DNA of 64,000 nucleotides from an uncultured Psychroserpens sp. (GTDB lineage: Bacteria; Bacteroidota; Bacteroidia; Flavobacteriales; Flavobacteriaceae): NCBI RefSeq assembly GCF_947492715.1, contig NZ_CANLNS010000002.1, forward strand, positions 310,001-374,000. The letters run 5' to 3'. Below the pieces are notes generated by a model. That model saw only the letters and a program-made list of their open reading frames with translations. It ran no database searches and was not told the origin of the DNA. How positions within the stretch are numbered: position 1 is the first letter of the stretch; each line of letters opens with the position of its first letter. The position numbers and the translations under genes were made by a program. Shown here in pieces: positions 1 to 8,448 of this stretch.

Positions 1-1905
1 TTATCGATTAACTACGGCATAAACTATTTATCTAAACAAGACCGTTCTGAGGAAGTTGAAACCATTCAAGATCAAATTAAAGCTTTATATGATCAAATTC
101 AGGTAGAAGAACATGCCATTACTGGATATAATGAAGAATTATATTTAATTACCGAAAACAGAAGGCTAGGTAATTCGACAGAGGTAGTAAACCTTGAAAA
201 ACTTCAAAAATTCGCCACATACTTCCGTACGCGAACTACAGAAATCAAATCAAACATTTATAAGTCTAATAAAGTAAAAAAGGACTTAAATGCTCAAATT
301 TCAGATTTAAAGAAACAACTTAACGAGCTAAATGTAAATGACAAAGTACAAACAGGAGAGATTACTGTTAAACTTAATTCTACTAACGCCTCAGAATTAA
401 ATTTAATAATCAAGTATAATGTTAGCAAAGCTGGATGGTTTCCTATCTATGATATCAAAGCAGAAAAAATTAATGAACCTATTCAACTAGTATACAAGGC
501 ACATGTGTATCAAAGCACTGGTAACGACTGGAAAAATGTAAAACTTACATTATCTACAAGCGATCCAAACACAAACAATGTAAAGCCCGATGTAAACCCC
601 AAATATTTAAACTTTATAAGTGCCAATAGTAACTATCAAAGTCAGAGAGCCACCAAAAGTTACAACTATAAGTTTAATCCTTTAGTAAAAACAGTGTCTG
701 GTGTGGTTACCTCAACAAATGACGGCTTACCACTTCCGGGAGCTACCGTTATAGAAAAGGGAACAACTAACGGCACACAAACCGATTTTGATGGCAACTA
801 TTCTTTACAAACTGCTGGCGGACAAGAATTAGTTTTTTCTTATGTAGGTATGAAAACCGAAACCTTACCAATTCATTCTAGTATTATGAACGTGTCTTTA
901 GACACAGATGCAAGTATAGATGAAGTTGTTATTGCAGCTTACGGTGCTAAAGCAAAAAGGAAGAATCTCAATTCGAGCGCCGTACAACATCTAGAGGGTC
1001 AAGTTGCTGGATTAAATATTTCTAGCGGAAGTGGCCAGCCTGGAGCCAATGCTTTTATAACGCTAAGAGGTGCTGGGACAATTAATGGCAATGTAGAGCC
1101 ATTATATATTGTAGATGGTGTTCCTGTTGATGCGTATAGTTTTAGAGCATTAAACCCAAACGATATCAAATCTTTTCAGGTGTTAAAAGATGCAGCAGAA
1201 GGCACTGCTATTTATGGTAATAGAGGCAGTAACGGTGCTATTGTTATCACAACGAAAAAAGGAAAACACACGTCTAAAGGTGATATTATTGAAGAAGGCA
1301 TCACCAATACACGCTTTGAAATTGCTAAAGCATACACAATACCAACAGATGGCGATGTGACCGTTATAGAAATTGAAGATTATAAAGTGCCTGCATCTTA
1401 CGCCTATTTTGCTGCTCCAGTATTAAATGAAAACGTTTTTTTAACAGCCAAAATTGATAACTGGGAACAGTATAACCTATTGCCTGCAGAAGCCAATGTG
1501 TATTTTGAAGGAAGCTATTCCGGAAAGACTAATATCAATCCTCAAAGCACTACAGAAAAATTAACCATCTCATTGGGTGTAGATCCAAATGTAGTTGTAA
1601 AGCGGACACAACCAACAGATTTCAAAAAGAAGGCTTTTATAGGAAGCAATAAAATTATATCTAAGCATTATGAGATTGAAGTAAAGAACAACAAATCGGC
1701 TGCCATAGATTTAGTACTGTATGATAGGATTCCTATTAGCCAGAACAAAGAAATAAAAATAGATGACATAGAAACGGGCAGCTCAGAGTATAACGATAAA
1801 AAAGGAATTTTAAAGTGGAATGTTAACATTCCTGCAAATAAAAAAGAAACGTACACATTCTCGTATATCGTAAAATATCCAAAATATAAACGTGTTAATT
1901 TATAA
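1..1905 (+). CDS. DUF4139 (mucoidy inhibitor MuiA-like) protein with inserted SusC-type plug module, 5' truncated
   Basis: The frame is open from the first base, so the N-terminus lies outside the window. The visible 634 residues start with a coiled-coil-like, Lys/Glu/Gln-rich stretch (about residues 10-110) and then the first half of a DUF4139 beta domain, including GWFPIYDIKA near residue 150 and TGNDWKNVKLTLST. From about base 694 a carboxypeptidase-D regulatory-like domain follows (SGVV, LPLPGATV, TDFDGNYS, SYVGM). Next, at about 926-1265, comes a TonB-receptor plug (GQVAGLNI, ITLRGAG, PLYIVDGVP, IYGNRGSNGAIVITTKKG). DUF4139 then resumes (YFAAPVLNENVFLTAKI to the end). There is no beta-barrel and no SusD partner next to it. 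The function is unknown; the family is thought to act in the envelope. The domain calls are secure and the role is not. Confidence 0.85.
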   Translation, partial: LSINYGINYLSKQDRSEEVETIQDQIKALYDQIQVEEHAITGYNEELYLITENRRLGNSTEVVNLEKLQKFATYFRTRTTEIKSNIYKSNKVKKDLNAQISDLKKQLNELNVNDKVQTGEITVKLNSTNASELNLIIKYNVSKAGWFPIYDIKAEKINEPIQLVYKAHVYQSTGNDWKNVKLTLSTSDPNTNNVKPDVNPKYLNFISANSNYQSQRATKSYNYKFNPLVKTVSGVVTSTNDGLPLPGATVIEKGTTNGTQTDFDGNYSLQTAGGQELVFSYVGMKTETLPIHSSIMNVSLDTDASIDEVVIAAYGAKAKRKNLNSSAVQHLEGQVAGLNISSGSGQPGANAFITLRGAGTINGNVEPLYIVDGVPVDAYSFRALNPNDIKSFQVLKDAAEGTAIYGNRGSNGAIVITTKKGKHTSKGDIIEEGITNTRFEIAKAYTIPTDGDVTVIEIEDYKVPASYAYFAAPVLNENVFLTAKIDNWEQYNLLPAEANVYFEGSYSGKTNINPQSTTEKLTISLGVDPNVVVKRTQPTDFKKKAFIGSNKIISKHYEIEVKNNKSAAIDLVLYDRIPISQNKEIKIDDIETGSSEYNDKKGILKWNVNIPANKKETYTFSYIVKYPKYKRVNL

Positions 1906-2171: not shown

Positions 2172-3332
2172 TTATTTTAGACTTTTTAAGATAAAGTCTA
2201 AGTTTTTATTGGAGTTGTCGTTAGTAAGATAGGCGTCGGTATAATGTTTGGATGGTATTGCGAGTCCTTTATCTTGTAATTTTTTAATAGTATCAATATA
2301 ATCTAAGGAGACTTTACCTGTGAGTAAAATATCCAGATCACCATCACTTTTAGCATAATTATAAACGCGATTAATACCACTCAAATATTGATGATCTTTT
2401 GTAAATCCACCACCTCGATGCACACGCAGCGTAATTGAAAATGCCTTATCTCTATTAAGTTTATATTGGCTATATAACAAATCGAACGTGTCAGCAAAAC
2501 TATAGCCTTTATTTAAAGTATCAACAGCAATAACCCGATATGCTAGTTCCTTAAGGCGTTTCATCGTTAAACATCCAGACATATATTCGGAGTAAACCGC
2601 TAACCCTTCTTGAGTCTCTACATTATTTGGAAATCCATTTGAAAACACCTTGAGCGGTTGTGCCAAACCGTTAAACGTTGTAACCATGTGCACACCAATT
2701 TCATGATTAGTTAAGACTTTTAGTTGGTTTTTACTGAATTTATGATTCTTATGCAGCACCAAGGTCTGTGAATGATTTAAAACCATTGCAGCTGCCGATA
2801 AATTCGTTGACAACTTGATATTATAGTTAAAATCATAACGTTTCGAATACTCATTAAAATAATCTACAGCATCCGAAGCCGAAAAAATAGGCAACATTTC
2901 CTCATCAAAATCACTATCGTCAAATCGTAAGATAAATTTAGCATTATCAATCTCCTTTTCAGTAGGTGTTCCAAAACTCTTAAGACTGTTAAAATAAAAT
3001 TTGCGCCCTTGGTTAATGGTTTCAATACATTCTATTAAGCCAGAGTATTCATAAATAACGTCTTCATACAACTGTCTAATTTCTTCATCAGATATGCGCT
3101 CTAACCGCTGTGAAAAGAACAGGCGATGTAACTTATATCCATTAAATTTCATCTTTGGATACTTAAATACAGGATCATAATTAAACTTGGACGAAAAAAA
3201 CTGCTTTTTCTCGCGTTGAATATTCAAAGGGTTGATATAATTAAGTACTTCAATTTTTTTTACTAATCGATTCAAATTTGCATCGATATCAAATAAATCT
3301 TGGTATTCGTCTGTACTTGTAATTTGTGGCAT
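2172..3332 (-). CDS. DUF1704 / QEGLA-motif zinc metallopeptidase-like protein
   Basis: This 386-residue protein belongs to the family named 'flavohemoglobin expression-modulating QEGLA motif protein' (DUF1704), which is related to eukaryotic MATCAP-type tyrosine carboxypeptidases. The zinc-site motif HEIGVH is near residue 207 and the name-giving QEGLA about 30 residues later (NVETQEGLAVYSEY). An ATG at 3365 is also in frame and would overlap the upstream amidohydrolase gene by 32 bases. I chose the ATG at 3332, one base after that gene's stop, the usual spacing for a coupled start. It is the last gene of a five-gene operon with an ATP-grasp ligase and an N-formylglutamate amidohydrolase homologue. 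I infer that it trims C-terminal residues from a peptide or protein, possibly one modified by the ligase; the substrate is unknown. Family call is strong, reaction is inferred. Confidence 0.85.
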   Translation of the reverse strand: MPQITSTDEYQDLFDIDANLNRLVKKIEVLNYINPLNIQREKKQFFSSKFNYDPVFKYPKMKFNGYKLHRLFFSQRLERISDEEIRQLYEDVIYEYSGLIECIETINQGRKFYFNSLKSFGTPTEKEIDNAKFILRFDDSDFDEEMLPIFSASDAVDYFNEYSKRYDFNYNIKLSTNLSAAAMVLNHSQTLVLHKNHKFSKNQLKVLTNHEIGVHMVTTFNGLAQPLKVFSNGFPNNVETQEGLAVYSEYMSGCLTMKRLKELAYRVIAVDTLNKGYSFADTFDLLYSQYKLNRDKAFSITLRVHRGGGFTKDHQYLSGINRVYNYAKSDGDLDILLTGKVSLDYIDTIKKLQDKGLAIPSKHYTDAYLTNDNSNKNLDFILKSLK

Positions 3333-3333
3333 T

Positions 3334-4161
3334 TTAGGCGTACTTATTGTAAAAATTAGTGGCATGCTCTGGCAATATGGCTCTCAATTGTTCTTCAACG
3401 CTAGCGACAACCTCAGGATAAATGATGTAATCATATTCATCACAATAAACCTTAGCAATTTCGGTTGCCAAAACTAAGGTATTTTGAAAGTTTTTGGTAA
3501 TAAATTTTAAGAAATATCCATTCCCTTGGAAGGTGTCATTAATTTTCGAGGTCGATTTAATAGCATGAGGAAGCCGTAACTCAGACAAAGCCTGTCTCCA
3601 TAACTCAATATCAGCGCCAAACCTATCATTATCAACATTTGAAGTACCCAAATTCCAAGTTGGCACTTCCCTATCCCATCGTTTCCAATTATAACTGTGC
3701 ATATCATAAACTATAGCCACACCAAATTTATGCTCTAGTTTAGCTATTAACGCATAAACAACTTTATAGAAATTCTTGTGTTTTTCGAGACTTTTGCTTT
3801 TTTGTTCTTCGGAAAGTGGCTCATGCCATAATTCCTTTCCCCAAGCCGTATCAAAAACGGCATCTTCAGGAGCTCTATTTAAATCATATTCAAAACGTGA
3901 ATCACAACCAGCAATAACAATTGGGTGTGAATTTATCATGTTTTTTGTTTCAGGATCTTCTTCATACCAACGTTCATACTCTGTATGTATGCAGTTACCC
4001 CAAAGTTCTTTCCTAAATTGGTGACCATCATGTACTGCACCACAAGCATAATGTACATAGGCATCAATTTTGATGCTAAATGAATAATCTTCGGCTACAG
4101 CATGAAATATCTTTTCATTATTGATATGTTCAATGATCTGTTCAATGCTTAGCTTTTCCAT
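3334..4161 (-). CDS. N-formylglutamate amidohydrolase family protein
   Basis: 275 residues, the usual size for this family (PF05013, HutG-like zinc amidohydrolases related to M14/aspartoacylase folds). Visible motifs are HYACGAVHDG near residue 36, AGCDSRFEYDLNR near 84 with the acidic/Arg pattern of the family, and VYDMHSYNW near 153 with a likely catalytic or metal-binding Asp/His. There are no hut histidine-degradation genes next to it, so a role in histidine catabolism is unlikely. It lies between the RDD membrane gene (9-base gap) and the QEGLA peptidase gene (one base). I infer that it removes an N-acyl or C-terminal glutamate-like group from a product of the neighbouring ATP-grasp enzyme. 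Start ATG at 4161 has no competitor nearby. Confidence 0.85.
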   Translation of the reverse strand: MEKLSIEQIIEHINNEKIFHAVAEDYSFSIKIDAYVHYACGAVHDGHQFRKELWGNCIHTEYERWYEEDPETKNMINSHPIVIAGCDSRFEYDLNRAPEDAVFDTAWGKELWHEPLSEEQKSKSLEKHKNFYKVVYALIAKLEHKFGVAIVYDMHSYNWKRWDREVPTWNLGTSNVDNDRFGADIELWRQALSELRLPHAIKSTSKINDTFQGNGYFLKFITKNFQNTLVLATEIAKVYCDEYDYIIYPEVVASVEEQLRAILPEHATNFYNKYA

Positions 4162-4170
4162 AATGAAGTT

Positions 4171-5208
4171 TTAAAATATTCTAAATTCGTCCATACATTT
4201 ATACAAAAATAAGGCTATAAGTGCAATCAAAAAAACAATGTATATGGCTCTATACTTAAACGGTTCGCGCTCTTGCTTAGCCACTGTTGTATAGGCCAAA
4301 CTATCATGCCATCCTAATTTACCAAAAAATGAAAAGGCATCAAAAGGAATACGTCTACAAAGCGTTCTGCCTAAAACATTCGAGAAGCTAACAACTTCGT
4401 TATTAAGATTTACGACACTGGTTTGACTTAAATACTTCGCTGGTGTAGCTTTAAAAAAACCTTCAAAGACTAAGAAATAAAACGAACTAAACACAAAGAA
4501 AATAATAGTAGCAGCAAAATGTTCACCAACAGCTAACTCTAAAGATGATACTAATCCCCTAAAGTTAAAGTCAAAAATATACACTGAAAAGATGCTCATT
4601 ATTAGAAATATATCCAAAATGTAATGCATGAGCCGTTGATACCATTCTGCCCGCTTTAACGTAAAGGATTTAAAATCTGGTAAAATCACTTTTTCAGTAT
4701 CAATATATATACGTTGTGATTTCCACGAGTTCAAATACAAATAACACACATAAAATAAAACAATGGCCTTCACGAAATAAAGTAATGAAAAAACAATCAT
4801 TTCATTACCTGGCTGAGTATTAAGTAATAGATAATAAAGTCTAAATAGCATTGCTATTAATGCAAACAAGAACAAAAAACTATAACAAAACTTGAGCACT
4901 TTAGATTCTTTAAATCTTGAAAGTTTATAGACAATGACTGAAATTAAGAATAGTATATAGAACACGAAATTTAAATAACTCATAGAGGAATATGAGCTCT
5001 CTTCTATATTAAACTTAAACTCAAAAACATCTGCTCTAAAGAAATTAAAATTAGCATAACCATAATTAAAAATTAGGCTAATCCATTTACTGCCTCCAGT
5101 ATTCATAAAATCATACATGTAAACAAACTGAAAGGAAATGCCTGATAAAGCCAGAAACAAAGACATTCCAAAGATGTTATTCAATAACCATTTATTTAAT
5201 TTTTGCAT
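4171..5208 (-). CDS. RDD-family integral membrane protein
   Basis: 345 residues with about seven hydrophobic segments, at roughly residues 10-30, 75-95, 105-120, 130-155, 190-210, 225-250 and 325-340. The second half (about residues 187-320) looks like an RDD domain: RAEWYQRLMHYILDIFLI with the Arg and Asp pattern, then ATPAKYLSQTSVV and an NVLGRTLCRRIPFDAFSF region typical of RDD proteins. RDD proteins are poorly characterised membrane proteins, some linked to ion transport. Here it is embedded in the ligase/peptidase operon, six bases after the rhodanese gene, so it may anchor or transport the pathway's product. The role is inferred from context only. Confidence 0.75.
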   Translation of the reverse strand: MQKLNKWLLNNIFGMSLFLALSGISFQFVYMYDFMNTGGSKWISLIFNYGYANFNFFRADVFEFKFNIEESSYSSMSYLNFVFYILFLISVIVYKLSRFKESKVLKFCYSFLFLFALIAMLFRLYYLLLNTQPGNEMIVFSLLYFVKAIVLFYVCYLYLNSWKSQRIYIDTEKVILPDFKSFTLKRAEWYQRLMHYILDIFLIMSIFSVYIFDFNFRGLVSSLELAVGEHFAATIIFFVFSSFYFLVFEGFFKATPAKYLSQTSVVNLNNEVVSFSNVLGRTLCRRIPFDAFSFFGKLGWHDSLAYTTVAKQEREPFKYRAIYIVFLIALIALFLYKCMDEFRIF

Positions 5209-5214
5209 ACCAAA

Positions 5215-6039
5215 TTATTTAGTTAATGTGCCGTATTCTGTCCAAGATCCATCATAAACAGACAGGTTTTTTATTCCTACAATTTCTGCAGCCAATGCCA
5301 AAATACAAGCTGTAATTCCAGAACCACATGAAAACGTAAGTTTTCGTGACCCAATATTAAAAGCACTAAAAATAGTTTTTAAGTCTTCTTTAGGCCTTAA
5401 ACAATGGCCATCAAATAAAGAAGTGTACGGAAGGTTTTCGGAGTTTGGTATTGTTCCGCTCCTTAAGCCCGCTCTAGGTTCTGGAATAATACTTTTAAAA
5501 CGATCTTCTGAACGTGCATCTAAAATTATGGCATCTTCATTTTTGGAAATCTCATTAATATGATAAAAAAAACGCATCTTATCTGCTTGATAATTTGCTG
5601 TAAAATTTCCATGTTGATTTAATTGATGTTCTCTATAAAAGGTTGTTTCAAAACCTAGTCGTTGCCACTCAGGAAGTCCACCATCCAATACAGCCACATT
5701 TTGATGTCCGAAAGATTTAAATAACCACCAAACTCTCGGACTCCAATACACACCTTTATTATCATAAACGACAATCAAAGACTCATTATTAATGCCGAGT
5801 TTTCTAACTTCTATTTCAAATTGTACTTGTGAAGGAAAGGTATTAGGGAATTCGCCATTGCTGTCGCTCAATTTTCGCTTAATATCGACGTATTTGGCTT
5901 CAGAAATAATTTTTCGAGCTAAAGATTCGCTTTCAGAATATACACTAGCATCAAGAACAACAAGTTCCTTCTTGTGACGGTTTTTAAGTAGCCATTCACA
6001 ACTCACAACAGGTGATGGAAACCCATCAGTTCTATGCAT
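5215..6039 (-). CDS. Two-domain rhodanese-family sulfurtransferase
   Basis: 274 residues, the usual length of tandem-rhodanese thiosulfate/3-mercaptopyruvate sulfurtransferases. The N-terminal inactive domain contains VYDNKGVYWSPRVWWLF and VLDGGLPEW. The C-terminal domain holds the active-site loop CGSGITAC near residue 240, with the catalytic cysteine first, and closes with VYDGSWTEYG. The CGSGxTA loop is the type usually seen in mercaptopyruvate-type enzymes. The ATG at 6039 overlaps the stop of the ATP-grasp gene (ATGCATAG), so translation is probably coupled; a TTG six bases upstream is less likely. The enzyme moves sulfane sulfur to thiol acceptors. Its place behind a GshB-like ligase suggests work on a low-molecular-weight thiol, which is an inference. 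Confidence 0.85.
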   Translation of the reverse strand: MHRTDGFPSPVVSCEWLLKNRHKKELVVLDASVYSESESLARKIISEAKYVDIKRKLSDSNGEFPNTFPSQVQFEIEVRKLGINNESLIVVYDNKGVYWSPRVWWLFKSFGHQNVAVLDGGLPEWQRLGFETTFYREHQLNQHGNFTANYQADKMRFFYHINEISKNEDAIILDARSEDRFKSIIPEPRAGLRSGTIPNSENLPYTSLFDGHCLRPKEDLKTIFSAFNIGSRKLTFSCGSGITACILALAAEIVGIKNLSVYDGSWTEYGTLTK

Positions 6040-7069
6040 CTTCAACTGTTTTTCTCAAACGTGTACGTCTATCAAATGCTTGTAGCTGATCCACAACTTT
6101 ACTTTCTAGAAAGTCAATAACGCGTTCTTCAACCCTAATTTTACTTTTATACACTTTGTTAATGTAAGTAATCCCGCCAGGAGACATCACATTAACTTCA
6201 ACAAGTTTCCCACCAATAACATCAATACCAACAAAATAGAGTCCGTCTTTGACAAGTTTCGGACCAATTTGTTTGCACAATGCTTTTTCAGCTTTAGTTA
6301 ATGTATGTTTTTGAACAGAACCACCAGCAGATACGTTAGAGCGATGATCATCAGACCCTGGAACACGTTTCATAGCGCCTACAGGTTCCCCATTAAGAAG
6401 TAAAATTCTAACGTCACCTTGATCTGCACCTTCAATATAATCTTGAAGTATTACATAATTCGAAGTACCATCACCACTAGTAATATAAAAATCTAATAAC
6501 GAGTTAATGTTGCTCATTGCAGACTTTTCAATAAGTATCACACCAGAACCTCCAAAGCCATTTAAAGGCTTTAATATCATTTTGTCTGCCTTTGACTCCT
6601 TAATTTGCTGAATGAGATAGTTTTTATTTTTTGAAACATGCGTATTCGGTATAATATTACTATGTGCATCTCCAAATGCCGCTGTATATAATTTATTATT
6701 TGCCTCACGCATACCTTGTAAAGAATTTACGATAAAGACATCGTCTTTTACCGAATCTAAGAAATTAAGCATGATTGGATCTAAAGGTGGATTTGCCCTA
6801 AAGAAAATAGCATCAAAACCAGCAAGTGGTAACATTTCTTCTCTCAATTGGGCTTTATTATAAAAAGCCTTCAATGTAGAAGGCACCTTCTCCATACGAT
6901 TAATAACTGTGCAAAACGCATTTGTAACACTATCTCTAATAGTCAAATTAGCAGGCGTGCACATCGCAACACCATGACCTCTTTTTGCGCATTCTTTTAT
7001 TAAGGCTAAGCTCGTATCATTTTCAGGATCTATCTGTTCCCAAGGATACATGATAAAACAAACATTCAT
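6032..7069 (-). CDS. GshB-like ATP-grasp ligase (glutathione synthetase family)
   Basis: 345 residues with a GshB-type architecture: N-terminal preATP-grasp domain (MNVCFIMYPWEQ, DAIFFRANPPLDP), then the ATP-grasp fold with KPLNGFGGSGV near residue 172 as the glycine-rich loop, VRILLLNGEPVGAM, and the metal/ATP motif EVNVMSPGG near residue 303. True GshB has a very similar EVNVTSPTG. No gshA is present here and the neighbours are not glutathione enzymes, so the substrate pair could be another amino acid and peptide. It is the first gene of the operon ending at 2172. ATG at 7069 is preferred over an in-frame TTG at 7075. Family is secure, glutathione synthesis itself is not. Confidence 0.85.
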   Translation of the reverse strand: MNVCFIMYPWEQIDPENDTSLALIKECAKRGHGVAMCTPANLTIRDSVTNAFCTVINRMEKVPSTLKAFYNKAQLREEMLPLAGFDAIFFRANPPLDPIMLNFLDSVKDDVFIVNSLQGMREANNKLYTAAFGDAHSNIIPNTHVSKNKNYLIQQIKESKADKMILKPLNGFGGSGVILIEKSAMSNINSLLDFYITSGDGTSNYVILQDYIEGADQGDVRILLLNGEPVGAMKRVPGSDDHRSNVSAGGSVQKHTLTKAEKALCKQIGPKLVKDGLYFVGIDVIGGKLVEVNVMSPGGITYINKVYKSKIRVEERVIDFLESKVVDQLQAFDRRTRLRKTVEDA

Positions 7070-7125
7070 AGTCAATTATTTTGGTTGATATGGTTAAATT
7101 TAAAAATAAAAATTGTTTACTGAAA

Positions 7126-8448
7126 CTATTTTACGTCTTCATAATTATCGTCCCAATTTTCTACTTTAGGTTCTCCTAGTTTACCCACCGATTTAGCTAC
7201 AACCATAGACACTGTAGCATCACCTGTAACATTTACAACTGTTCTACACATATCTAATGGTCTGTCTACTGCGAATATAAGTGCTAAACCTATTGGCAAT
7301 AAATGTGGCGGAAGACCAACAGATTCTAAAACAATCACTAGCATTACCATTCCTGCTCCTGGTACAGCAGCACTACCTATAGATGCCAACAAGGCTGTCA
7401 AAACTATAGTGATTTGATCGGCAAAAGTTAAATCGAGTCCAAGTGCCTGAAATATAAATACTGCTGCAACGGCTTGGTATAAACTTGTACCATCCATGTT
7501 AATCGTTGCGCCTACTGGTAATACAAAACTCGACACTTCTTTATCAACACCAATATGCTCTTCAACACGCTCCATAGTTACTGGTAACGTTGCGGCACTA
7601 CTGCTGGTTGAGAAAGCCAGTAGTTGGGCAGGGCTTATTTGCTTTAAAAACCAAAATGGGTTTTTCTTTGTAAATGTAGCTACGAGAATAGCATAAAAAA
7701 CAATCATTAAAATTAACCCAGCTACTACCACACCAGCATATTTTAACAAGGCATATAAAATGTCTGGATCATCAGAAGACACCACGACATTTGCCAATAA
7801 TGCAAAAACTGCAACAGGAGCAGTTAGCATTATTAAATCCACCATTTTCAAAACAATATCATTTAGTGAGTCAAACAAATTCTTCATAGGTTTGGCACGT
7901 TCTTCTCCAATAAGTAGCATTGATATACCCAAAAATATTGCAAAGAAAATGACTTGAAGCATTAGTTTATTATTCCCTAAGGCTTTGAAGGCATTATCAG
8001 GAACCATATCTTCTAGAAATTGCAAAGGTCCAGTATCCATTTGCTTTGAGGCTTCGGCAATTTTTGCTTTAACACTACTATTTTGAGAATACGTCTCTGT
8101 TAGCTTTGTAATTGTCTCTTCAGAAACACCATCTCCTGGTGATAAAATATTCACTAATGCTAATCCAATTGAAATAGCTATAACTGTGGTTACTATGTAT
8201 ATTCCAATCGTTCGTAATCCAATATTTTTAAATTTAGAAATGTCTTTTAAATCTGAAATACCCTTAATTAATGATGCCAGTATTAACGGAATTGCAATTA
8301 GCTTCAATAATTTAACAAAAATCGATCCTATTGGCTTTATCCAATCTTCGGTAAATTCTCTTCCTCCAACTTGAAGCATAACAAAACCGAATATTAGACC
8401 CAATAACATTCCTATTAAAATTTTCCAGTGTAATGCTAATTTTTTCAT
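7126..8448 (-). CDS. Dicarboxylate/amino acid:cation symporter (DAACS family)
   Basis: 440 residues in the inner membrane, as expected for GltP/GltT/DctA-type carriers that couple uptake of glutamate, aspartate or C4-dicarboxylates to sodium or protons. Family marks are the serine-rich re-entrant loop STSSSAATLPVTMERVEE near residue 280, the VGATINMDGTSLYQ motif near 315 (NMDGT binds sodium and substrate), the second re-entrant loop ASIGSAAVPGAGMVML near 360, and the late helix PLDMCRTVVNVTGDA with the conserved Asp/Arg/Asn that contact substrate. It stands alone between the ligase operon and aroC; substrate cannot be told from sequence. Confidence 0.92.
   Translation of the reverse strand: MKKLALHWKILIGMLLGLIFGFVMLQVGGREFTEDWIKPIGSIFVKLLKLIAIPLILASLIKGISDLKDISKFKNIGLRTIGIYIVTTVIAISIGLALVNILSPGDGVSEETITKLTETYSQNSSVKAKIAEASKQMDTGPLQFLEDMVPDNAFKALGNNKLMLQVIFFAIFLGISMLLIGEERAKPMKNLFDSLNDIVLKMVDLIMLTAPVAVFALLANVVVSSDDPDILYALLKYAGVVVAGLILMIVFYAILVATFTKKNPFWFLKQISPAQLLAFSTSSSAATLPVTMERVEEHIGVDKEVSSFVLPVGATINMDGTSLYQAVAAVFIFQALGLDLTFADQITIVLTALLASIGSAAVPGAGMVMLVIVLESVGLPPHLLPIGLALIFAVDRPLDMCRTVVNVTGDATVSMVVAKSVGKLGEPKVENWDDNYEDVK

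Follow-up and report, generated by a model that had tools for sequence, protein, structure and literature searches.

A conserved ligase, FGase and MATCAP gene cluster of Psychroserpens as a possible write/erase system for an acidic amino-acid conjugate

What could be the product of an operon in which a ligase labelled as a glutathione synthase stands beside two putative hydrolases, one of them from a family known for a human microtubule enzyme? The question is raised by a locus of an uncultured Psychroserpens sp. (Flavobacteriaceae) within a stretch of 64,000 nucleotides (contig NZ_CANLNS010000002.1, positions 310,001 to 374,000), referred to below as the window. Five consecutive open reading frames (ORFs) are transcribed on its minus strand in the following order: a GshB-like ATP-grasp ligase, a rhodanese, an RDD membrane protein, a hydrolase of the N-formylglutamate amidohydrolase fold (FGase), and a MATCAP protein. 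The last family, PF08014, was formerly called DUF1704 and takes its present name, MATCAP, from a human tyrosine carboxypeptidase of microtubules. An earlier note on this DNA had described these genes as a five-gene operon. The ORF spacings from the ligase to MATCAP (-14, 6, 9 and -32 bases) agree with that description, and each of the five gene names is backed by a Pfam match (GSH-S_ATP/GSH-S_N, Rhodanese, RDD, FGase and MATCAP). In addition, a symporter gene on the same strand stops 50 bases upstream of the ligase. We tentatively propose that these genes encode a dedicated cycle that writes and erases an acidic amino-acid conjugate, probably an oligoglutamyl one; the cycle would be tied to the osmotic state of the cell and distinct from the glutathione pathway.

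Composition and inheritance of the unit

The distribution of the genes was analyzed in 296 genomes of the order, which were searched with each core protein (the ligase was counted at E 1e-20 or better), and in a set of named loci. The latter are the best 80 of 575 confirmed stretches, and their percentages therefore describe close relatives; the counts cover 6.5 kb upstream of MATCAP on the same strand. Among the order genomes, MATCAP was identified in 27, the ligase in 24, and an FGase of the window type in 20. The ligase and MATCAP occur together in 23 genomes (Fisher p ~4e-29 over the 296 genomes, uncorrected for kinship), and in all 23 the ligase sits in the MATCAP cluster (22 of the 26 order loci, plus the window). 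MATCAP without the ligase was found in four genomes (G271, G203, G233 and G263), and the ligase without MATCAP in a single genome that is 65% complete (G083). All 20 genomes with the window-type FGase fall within these 23, and in the remaining three a hydrolase of the AstE/AspA family replaces FGase in the cluster (assigned by Pfam at L030, and by homology to L030 at L031 and L032). MATCAP is rarer across the phylum, where it was found in 19 of 395 genomes.

Upstream of MATCAP in the 80 named loci, FGase is present in 78, the ligase in 77, the symporter in 64, the rhodanese in 27, and the RDD protein in one (L061). The ligase missing from L076 and some of the missing symporters are explained by contig ends, which cut loci L062, L076 and L131 badly and L094, L125 and L127 partly. 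From these counts it follows that the unit consists of the symporter, the ligase, FGase and MATCAP, the last three forming its conserved core. The rhodanese and a small TerB-like protein (present in 16 of the 80 loci, with six more carrying a TerB-like part fused to the rhodanese) are accessories of particular clades, and the RDD gene is a rare insertion.

These results divide the gene set of the earlier note. Its conserved combination of a ligase, an amidohydrolase and a peptidase was recovered as a single cluster in each genome where ligase and MATCAP co-occur, and the 296 genomes gave no sign of the scattered arrangement in relatives that the note had named as evidence against itself. It had also proposed that the rhodanese adds sulfur and that the membrane protein anchors or exports. 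Since the former is confined to 27 of the 80 named and 4 of the 26 order loci, and the latter to one named locus and none of the order loci, this part does not hold as a general scheme, and the full five-gene version was rejected. The conserved membrane partner is instead the symporter of the Asp/Glu type, which was absent from that gene set.

The features of the window are listed in Table 1. The nearest named relative of the window MATCAP is 94% identical (a comparison that may omit the very nearest records). No Rfam family matched at its gathering score within the window, and a known RNA element was therefore set aside. The scans for promoters (39 promoter-like sites, 35.9 expected) and terminators (6 terminator-like sites, 3.7 expected) were uninformative.

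Table 1. Genes of the unit and other features of the window
Feature	Position	Strand	Remarks
SDF-family symporter, Asp/Glu type	7126..8448	-	Pfam SDF, 423 bits; probable first gene of the unit
GshB-like ATP-grasp ligase, PRK12458 subfamily	6032..7075	-	TTG start, first ATG at 7069; Pfam GSH-S_ATP/GSH-S_N
Rhodanese, 3-mercaptopyruvate-sulfurtransferase-like; clade-specific accessory	5215..6045	-	Pfam Rhodanese, two stretches
RDD membrane protein; sporadic insertion	4171..5208	-	Pfam RDD, 38.8 bits
FGase, hydrolase of the N-formylglutamate amidohydrolase fold	3334..4161	-	Pfam FGase (PF05013), 53.8 bits, cut-off 28.9
MATCAP (DUF1704/QEGLA) metallocarboxypeptidase family protein	2172..3365	-	PF08014, 333 bits, cut-off 27
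ORF open at the window edge	1..1905	+	DUF4139 match interrupted by a carboxypeptidase-regulatory and TonB-plug-like insert

The ligase and its glutathione synthase label

The window ligase scores 464 bits against the PRK12458 model (NF009110, cut-off 408). Four other ligases from the clusters reach 415 to 501 bits on this model, and GshB of E. coli 222 bits. On the glutathione synthase model TIGR01380, the window protein remains below the cut-off (239 vs 299 bits). Each catalytic position of the E. coli enzyme that was compared is kept in the ligase, namely Lys125, Lys160, Asp208, Arg210, Arg225, Arg233, Asp273, Glu281 and Asn283. In contrast, at the position of Thr288 all 28 cluster ligases that were aligned have Gly, and all five true GshB proteins chosen as a yardstick have Thr (in this comparison L149 is represented by its annotated gene, and the Desulfocapsa ligase, which has Thr, was left out of both groups). 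A motif search gave the same picture, with Gly at this place in 77 of 77 named, 24 of 24 order and 10 of 10 L138-L151 ligases, making 111 of 111 in total, and Thr in none. Three chains of the RimK type in the PDB also read SPG at the equivalent loop. We suggest that the residue at this place may set the specificity of the ligase.

The earlier note had named a gshA gene and glutathione, accompanied by this ligase making ordinary glutathione, as another finding that would overturn it. No match to PF04262 or PF04107, the gshA-type families, was detected in this genome (other GshA families were not searched). Among the 35 genomes of the phylum that carry MATCAP, PF04262 is present in none and PF04107 is missing from 26. 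As no source of gamma-Glu-Cys was found, the ligase should yield no glutathione here, barring a route outside this search. Given the lack of a gshA-type match and the changed loop, ordinary glutathione synthesis is unlikely and was set aside, and the glutathione synthase label looks wrong for this protein.

On a Desulfocapsa plasmid (L158), a GshB-like gene is clustered with a C45 peptidase, a protein of the gamma-glutamyl-GABA hydrolase family and a radical SAM protein. Phage-borne copies (seven records with 29-31% identity, annotated as glutathione synthase, as S6 modification or not at all) were considered and set aside.

The hydrolases, the symporter and the accessory genes

The AlphaFold2 model of FGase has a predicted local distance difference test score (pLDDT) of 91.5, and its best Foldseek match is 2q7s (E 1.3e-10, template modelling score (TM) 0.72). 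A structural tie to metallocarboxypeptidases is weak (Foldseek E ~1e-3). Residues His44, His155 and Glu234 are invariant across 41 aligned sequences. The residue patterns, searched as regular expressions, were found in 75, 76 and 49 of 78 sequences, the third pattern being too narrow, and the LATE motif occurs in 78 of 79 FGase ORFs, the exception being a fragment in L135. On TIGR02017, the model of the N-formylglutamate deformylase HutG, this protein scores 19.9 bits, far under the cut-off of 278.75.

For MATCAP (pLDDT 89.3), the best structural match is human MATCAP (7z5g, TM ~0.5-0.6), and carboxypeptidases such as 5e3x and 5giv match more weakly. The alignment with 7z5g is long and has a root-mean-square deviation above 10, and the Colwellia lipoprotein 3o0y ranks between 7z5g and the carboxypeptidases; the Foldseek result therefore supports the MATCAP family and not its fine geometry. 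The motifs HExxxH and QEG[LIMF]A are present in MATCAP of all 80 named loci. On the QEGLA model TIGR02421, the window protein scores 305.9 bits and falls under the cut-off of 338.65, which the fusion protein of Photobacterium DA100 passes (459.9); no support was found for the flavohemoglobin role contained in the name of this model. The human relatives are described as tubulin detyrosinases and deglutamylases that trim tubulin tails (PMC10499314). By analogy with these members we infer carboxypeptidase activity for the bacterial protein. Both FGase and MATCAP are predicted to be of the zinc type on the basis of their families and motifs.

The two hydrolases are also connected by their gene architectures. 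In class I (ligase, FGase, MATCAP), FGase and MATCAP form one ORF in 8 of the 26 order loci, and in both Photobacterium loci (sp. GJ3 and DA100) the ligase is followed by an FGase-MATCAP fusion. Class II combines FGase and a long MATCAP with a second type of ligase. It was identified in four of eight further Bacteroidota loci (L140-L143), and annotated plasmid loci of this type occur in Pararhizobium, Mesorhizobium, Shinella and Sinorhizobium meliloti, all four having the ligase beside FGase and MATCAP; in S. meliloti 1021 the long MATCAP and the ligase are located on pSymB. At the class II loci L030-L032, FGase is replaced by AstE. The 260 residues by which the long MATCAP is extended give an hhalign match to the FGase profile (97.5%, score 86.9), compared with a maximum of 22.2 in 40 column-shuffled profiles and 12.8 with the reversed profile. 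The [VI]HxG motif was not present in the first 120 residues of any of the five long MATCAPs checked. The most plausible reading of the extension is that of a decayed FGase domain, which would tie FGase and MATCAP physically in both classes. Two hybrid clusters (L047 and L052) contain both ligase types together with FGase and a long MATCAP, and might represent two ligation steps in one pathway. At L145, an FGase-like ORF, a ligase-like ORF and a MATCAP match are present, the frame of the latter not being recovered.

The best PDB matches of the symporter are the aspartate transporter 9bgz (E 2e-94) and entries of the GltPh type, and its stretch DMCRTVVNVTGD is aligned with DMARTTVNVTGD. It carries the substrate loop DMxRTxVN, the Arg of which has a role known from work on GltPh. 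The score on the GltP model is 257 bits, below its cut-off of 638. We predict an SDF-type symporter for glutamate or aspartate. The genes found between the symporter and the ligase in some Flavobacteriaceae resemble, by eye and without a family search, unrelated surface and mechanosensitive-channel proteins.

The rhodanese scores 183 bits on NF008557 (cut-off 250), and its active loop, CGSGITA, is presumably of the 3-mercaptopyruvate-sulfurtransferase type. In the surveyed loci the small TerB-like protein (L056:7612-7935, L081:6010-7161), for which the TerB match is weak and below the cut-off, follows the rhodanese. The rhodanese may matter in one clade.

A possible conjugate cycle, its rivals and its known counterparts

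A connection to salinity is suggested by expression data from another bacterium. In an RNA-seq comparison of Photobacterium damselae at 1% and 3% NaCl, the 'GshB' gene A0J47_RS17020 was 38.4-fold up and the gene of the QEGLA protein A0J47_RS17025 27.5-fold up at 1% NaCl, and Table 2 of the same report gives a 52-fold rise at low salt for RimK, another ATP-grasp glutamate ligase (PMC10308900). The authors discuss this GshB as a glutathione synthetase (PMC10308900). The two locus tags are neighbours, and their order matches the arrangement of ligase and then fusion in the two other Photobacterium loci. A bearing on hypo-osmotic tolerance is also stated for the rlo operon of P. aeruginosa, which includes an ATP-grasp protein and polyglutamate-cleaving peptidases (PMC12239564). 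Weaker hints are a cluster for a monovalent-cation/H+ antiporter near the Shinella locus, glycogen genes near the Pararhizobium locus and the many marine genera represented in the 80 named loci.

The proposed cycle would start with the symporter, which would supply glutamate or aspartate. Using ATP, the ligase would join this amino acid to a carboxylate of an acidic acceptor, as ligases of the RimK type do with glutamate. MATCAP would take the C-terminal residue or residues off again, and FGase, or the AstE/AspA protein in its place, would hydrolyse an amide of the same compound, either an N-acyl one or one in a side chain. Since the hydrolases are often fused into a single protein, they are likely to act as one unit. 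The product would most likely be a short peptide, oligoglutamyl or N-acyl-aspartyl/glutamyl, with a level that tracks external salinity and an osmotic effect exerted through the number of free glutamate particles or through an exported anionic osmolyte. The surveys show that a ligase with its catalytic residues kept and its loop changed is inherited together with FGase, MATCAP and the symporter, and they document the fusions and the conserved motifs; the chemistry of the conjugate, the substrate, the product and the salt response in this clade are inferred.

A number of observations weigh against the proposed cycle. Loci L109, L128 and L046 (the latter from the order sample) have the symporter and a MATCAP with intact motifs and no ligase or FGase there, and the searches of the L046 genome found neither gene elsewhere. 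The symporter is missing from the 6.5 kb surveyed in the nine Aquimarina loci, and in Vibrio sp. HDW18 the FGase-MATCAP fusion lacks a ligase in the 17 kb seen. At L038, L039 and L138, a divergent MATCAP of ~420 residues, with best matches among plasmid genes of Pseudoalteromonas and others (31-34% identity), has no ligase, FGase or AstE gene in the stretch seen. The P. damselae pair was assigned from names and tag order and not from sequences, the species in which salinity was varied belongs to a different phylum, and a joint rise of synthesis and hydrolysis genes does not reveal a direction. The literature searched reports no substrate for any bacterial member and, on the function of the system, nothing beyond the P. 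damselae table, most subscription papers and bioRxiv being outside its coverage. Finally, the ligase passes the glutathione synthase model NF003573 (286 bits, cut-off 272), PF04107 is present in 9 of the 35 MATCAP genomes, and the set of five true GshB proteins and the hand-chosen yardsticks are small.

The last points lead to the explanation that the ligase is a glutathione synthase after all, and that glutathione or a closely related thiol is both made and recycled by the operon, the rhodanese acting on persulfides. This would fit the Pfam domains and the name of the PRK12458 model, which is itself called glutathione synthetase, and the rhodanese at 27 loci. We consider it quite improbable in view of the missing gshA-type matches, the failure on TIGR01380 and the uniform Gly at the Thr288 place; moreover, a rhodanese is missing from the upstream 6.5 kb in 53 of the 80 loci. 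Alternatively, FGase and MATCAP could be a catabolic pair for imported acylated peptides, the ligase being linked for another reason, as the Vibrio fusion without a neighbouring ligase and the three symporter-MATCAP loci without one would allow. This is highly improbable, however, since the MATCAP cluster includes the ligase in 23 of the 27 order genomes that have MATCAP, in 77 of the 80 named loci and in the four annotated rhizobial loci.

A modest chance, well short of probable, is given to each of two other explanations. In one of them the target is a protein tail, as with RimK/RimB or in tubulin tyrosination: the ligase would add an amino acid at the C-terminus of one cell protein, MATCAP would remove it, and FGase would have a side role. 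The RimK-like SPG loop is in line with this, as is the trimming of protein tails by the animal homologues of MATCAP (PMC10499314). Against it, no candidate target protein recurs in the surveyed loci, and none was sought elsewhere. In addition, GshB-type ligases, like the families of FGase and AstE, are known for acting on small substrates. The other explanation is a cycle of a storage peptide or N-acyl dipeptide without an osmotic role. Cyanophycin synthetase is paired with cyanophycinase, and the N-acetyl-aspartyl-glutamate cycle comprises an ATP-grasp ligase, a carboxypeptidase and an aspartoacylase. A similar cycle would suit the replacement of FGase by AstE/AspA in three loci, the Asp/Glu type of the symporter and the glycogen genes near the Pararhizobium set, whereas the induction in P. 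damselae at low salt is unexpected for a plain store.

If the osmotic conjugate cycle is correct, the ligase subfamily that carries the label glutathione synthetase in marine Bacteroidota, rhizobia and Vibrionaceae has another function, and the published low-salt induction of a marine bacterial 'GshB' needs to be re-read. The MATCAP family, studied so far as microtubule enzymes in the literature consulted, would gain a genetically tractable bacterial setting, and glutamate chains could be tested as a means of managing salinity. A more far-reaching version is speculative and we regard it as rather unlikely. It holds that bacteria have a three-enzyme cycle made of the enzyme classes of the eukaryotic tubulin tail code and acting on an oligoglutamyl compound for osmotic buffering, that the animal tubulin carboxypeptidase descended from such an operon, and that many PRK12458 'glutathione synthetases' are misnamed glutamate ligases. 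In this comparison the ligase would correspond to TTL/TTLL, the part of the CCPs would fall to a zinc hydrolase with a carboxypeptidase-like fold, and MATCAP would be common to both.

The pairing of ATP-grasp ligases with peptidases is an already known idea: Iyer et al. in 2009 reportedly predicted that ATP-grasp genes located next to peptidase genes, DUF1704 possibly among the latter, serve in peptide synthesis. Compared with E. coli GshB (1gsa), the window ligase has the same fold family, Pfam domains and compared catalytic positions, but differs in Gly for Thr288, in its PRK12458 membership and in a genome with no gshA-type match. MATCAP shares the PF08014 family, the HExxxH motif and the overall structure (TM ~0.5-0.6) with human MATCAP/TMCP1 (KIAA0895L; 7z5g), whereas the bacterial protein, of predicted activity and ~20% identical in the structural alignment, is encoded in an operon with FGase or fused to it, together with a ligase. 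FGase has the fold of the N-formylglutamate amidohydrolase 2q7s (the TM of 0.72 given above), but its score is far below the HutG cut-off, and none of its neighbours within the first 12 kb is a hut gene. A parallel in organization is provided by RimK/RimB and RloABC, where an ATP-grasp protein is likewise paired with a peptidase cleaving glutamate chains and where Rlo has a link to hypo-osmotic stress (PMC12239564). The peptidases of those systems are retropepsins, while the operon described here has MATCAP and FGase together with a GshB-like ligase and an Asp/Glu symporter.

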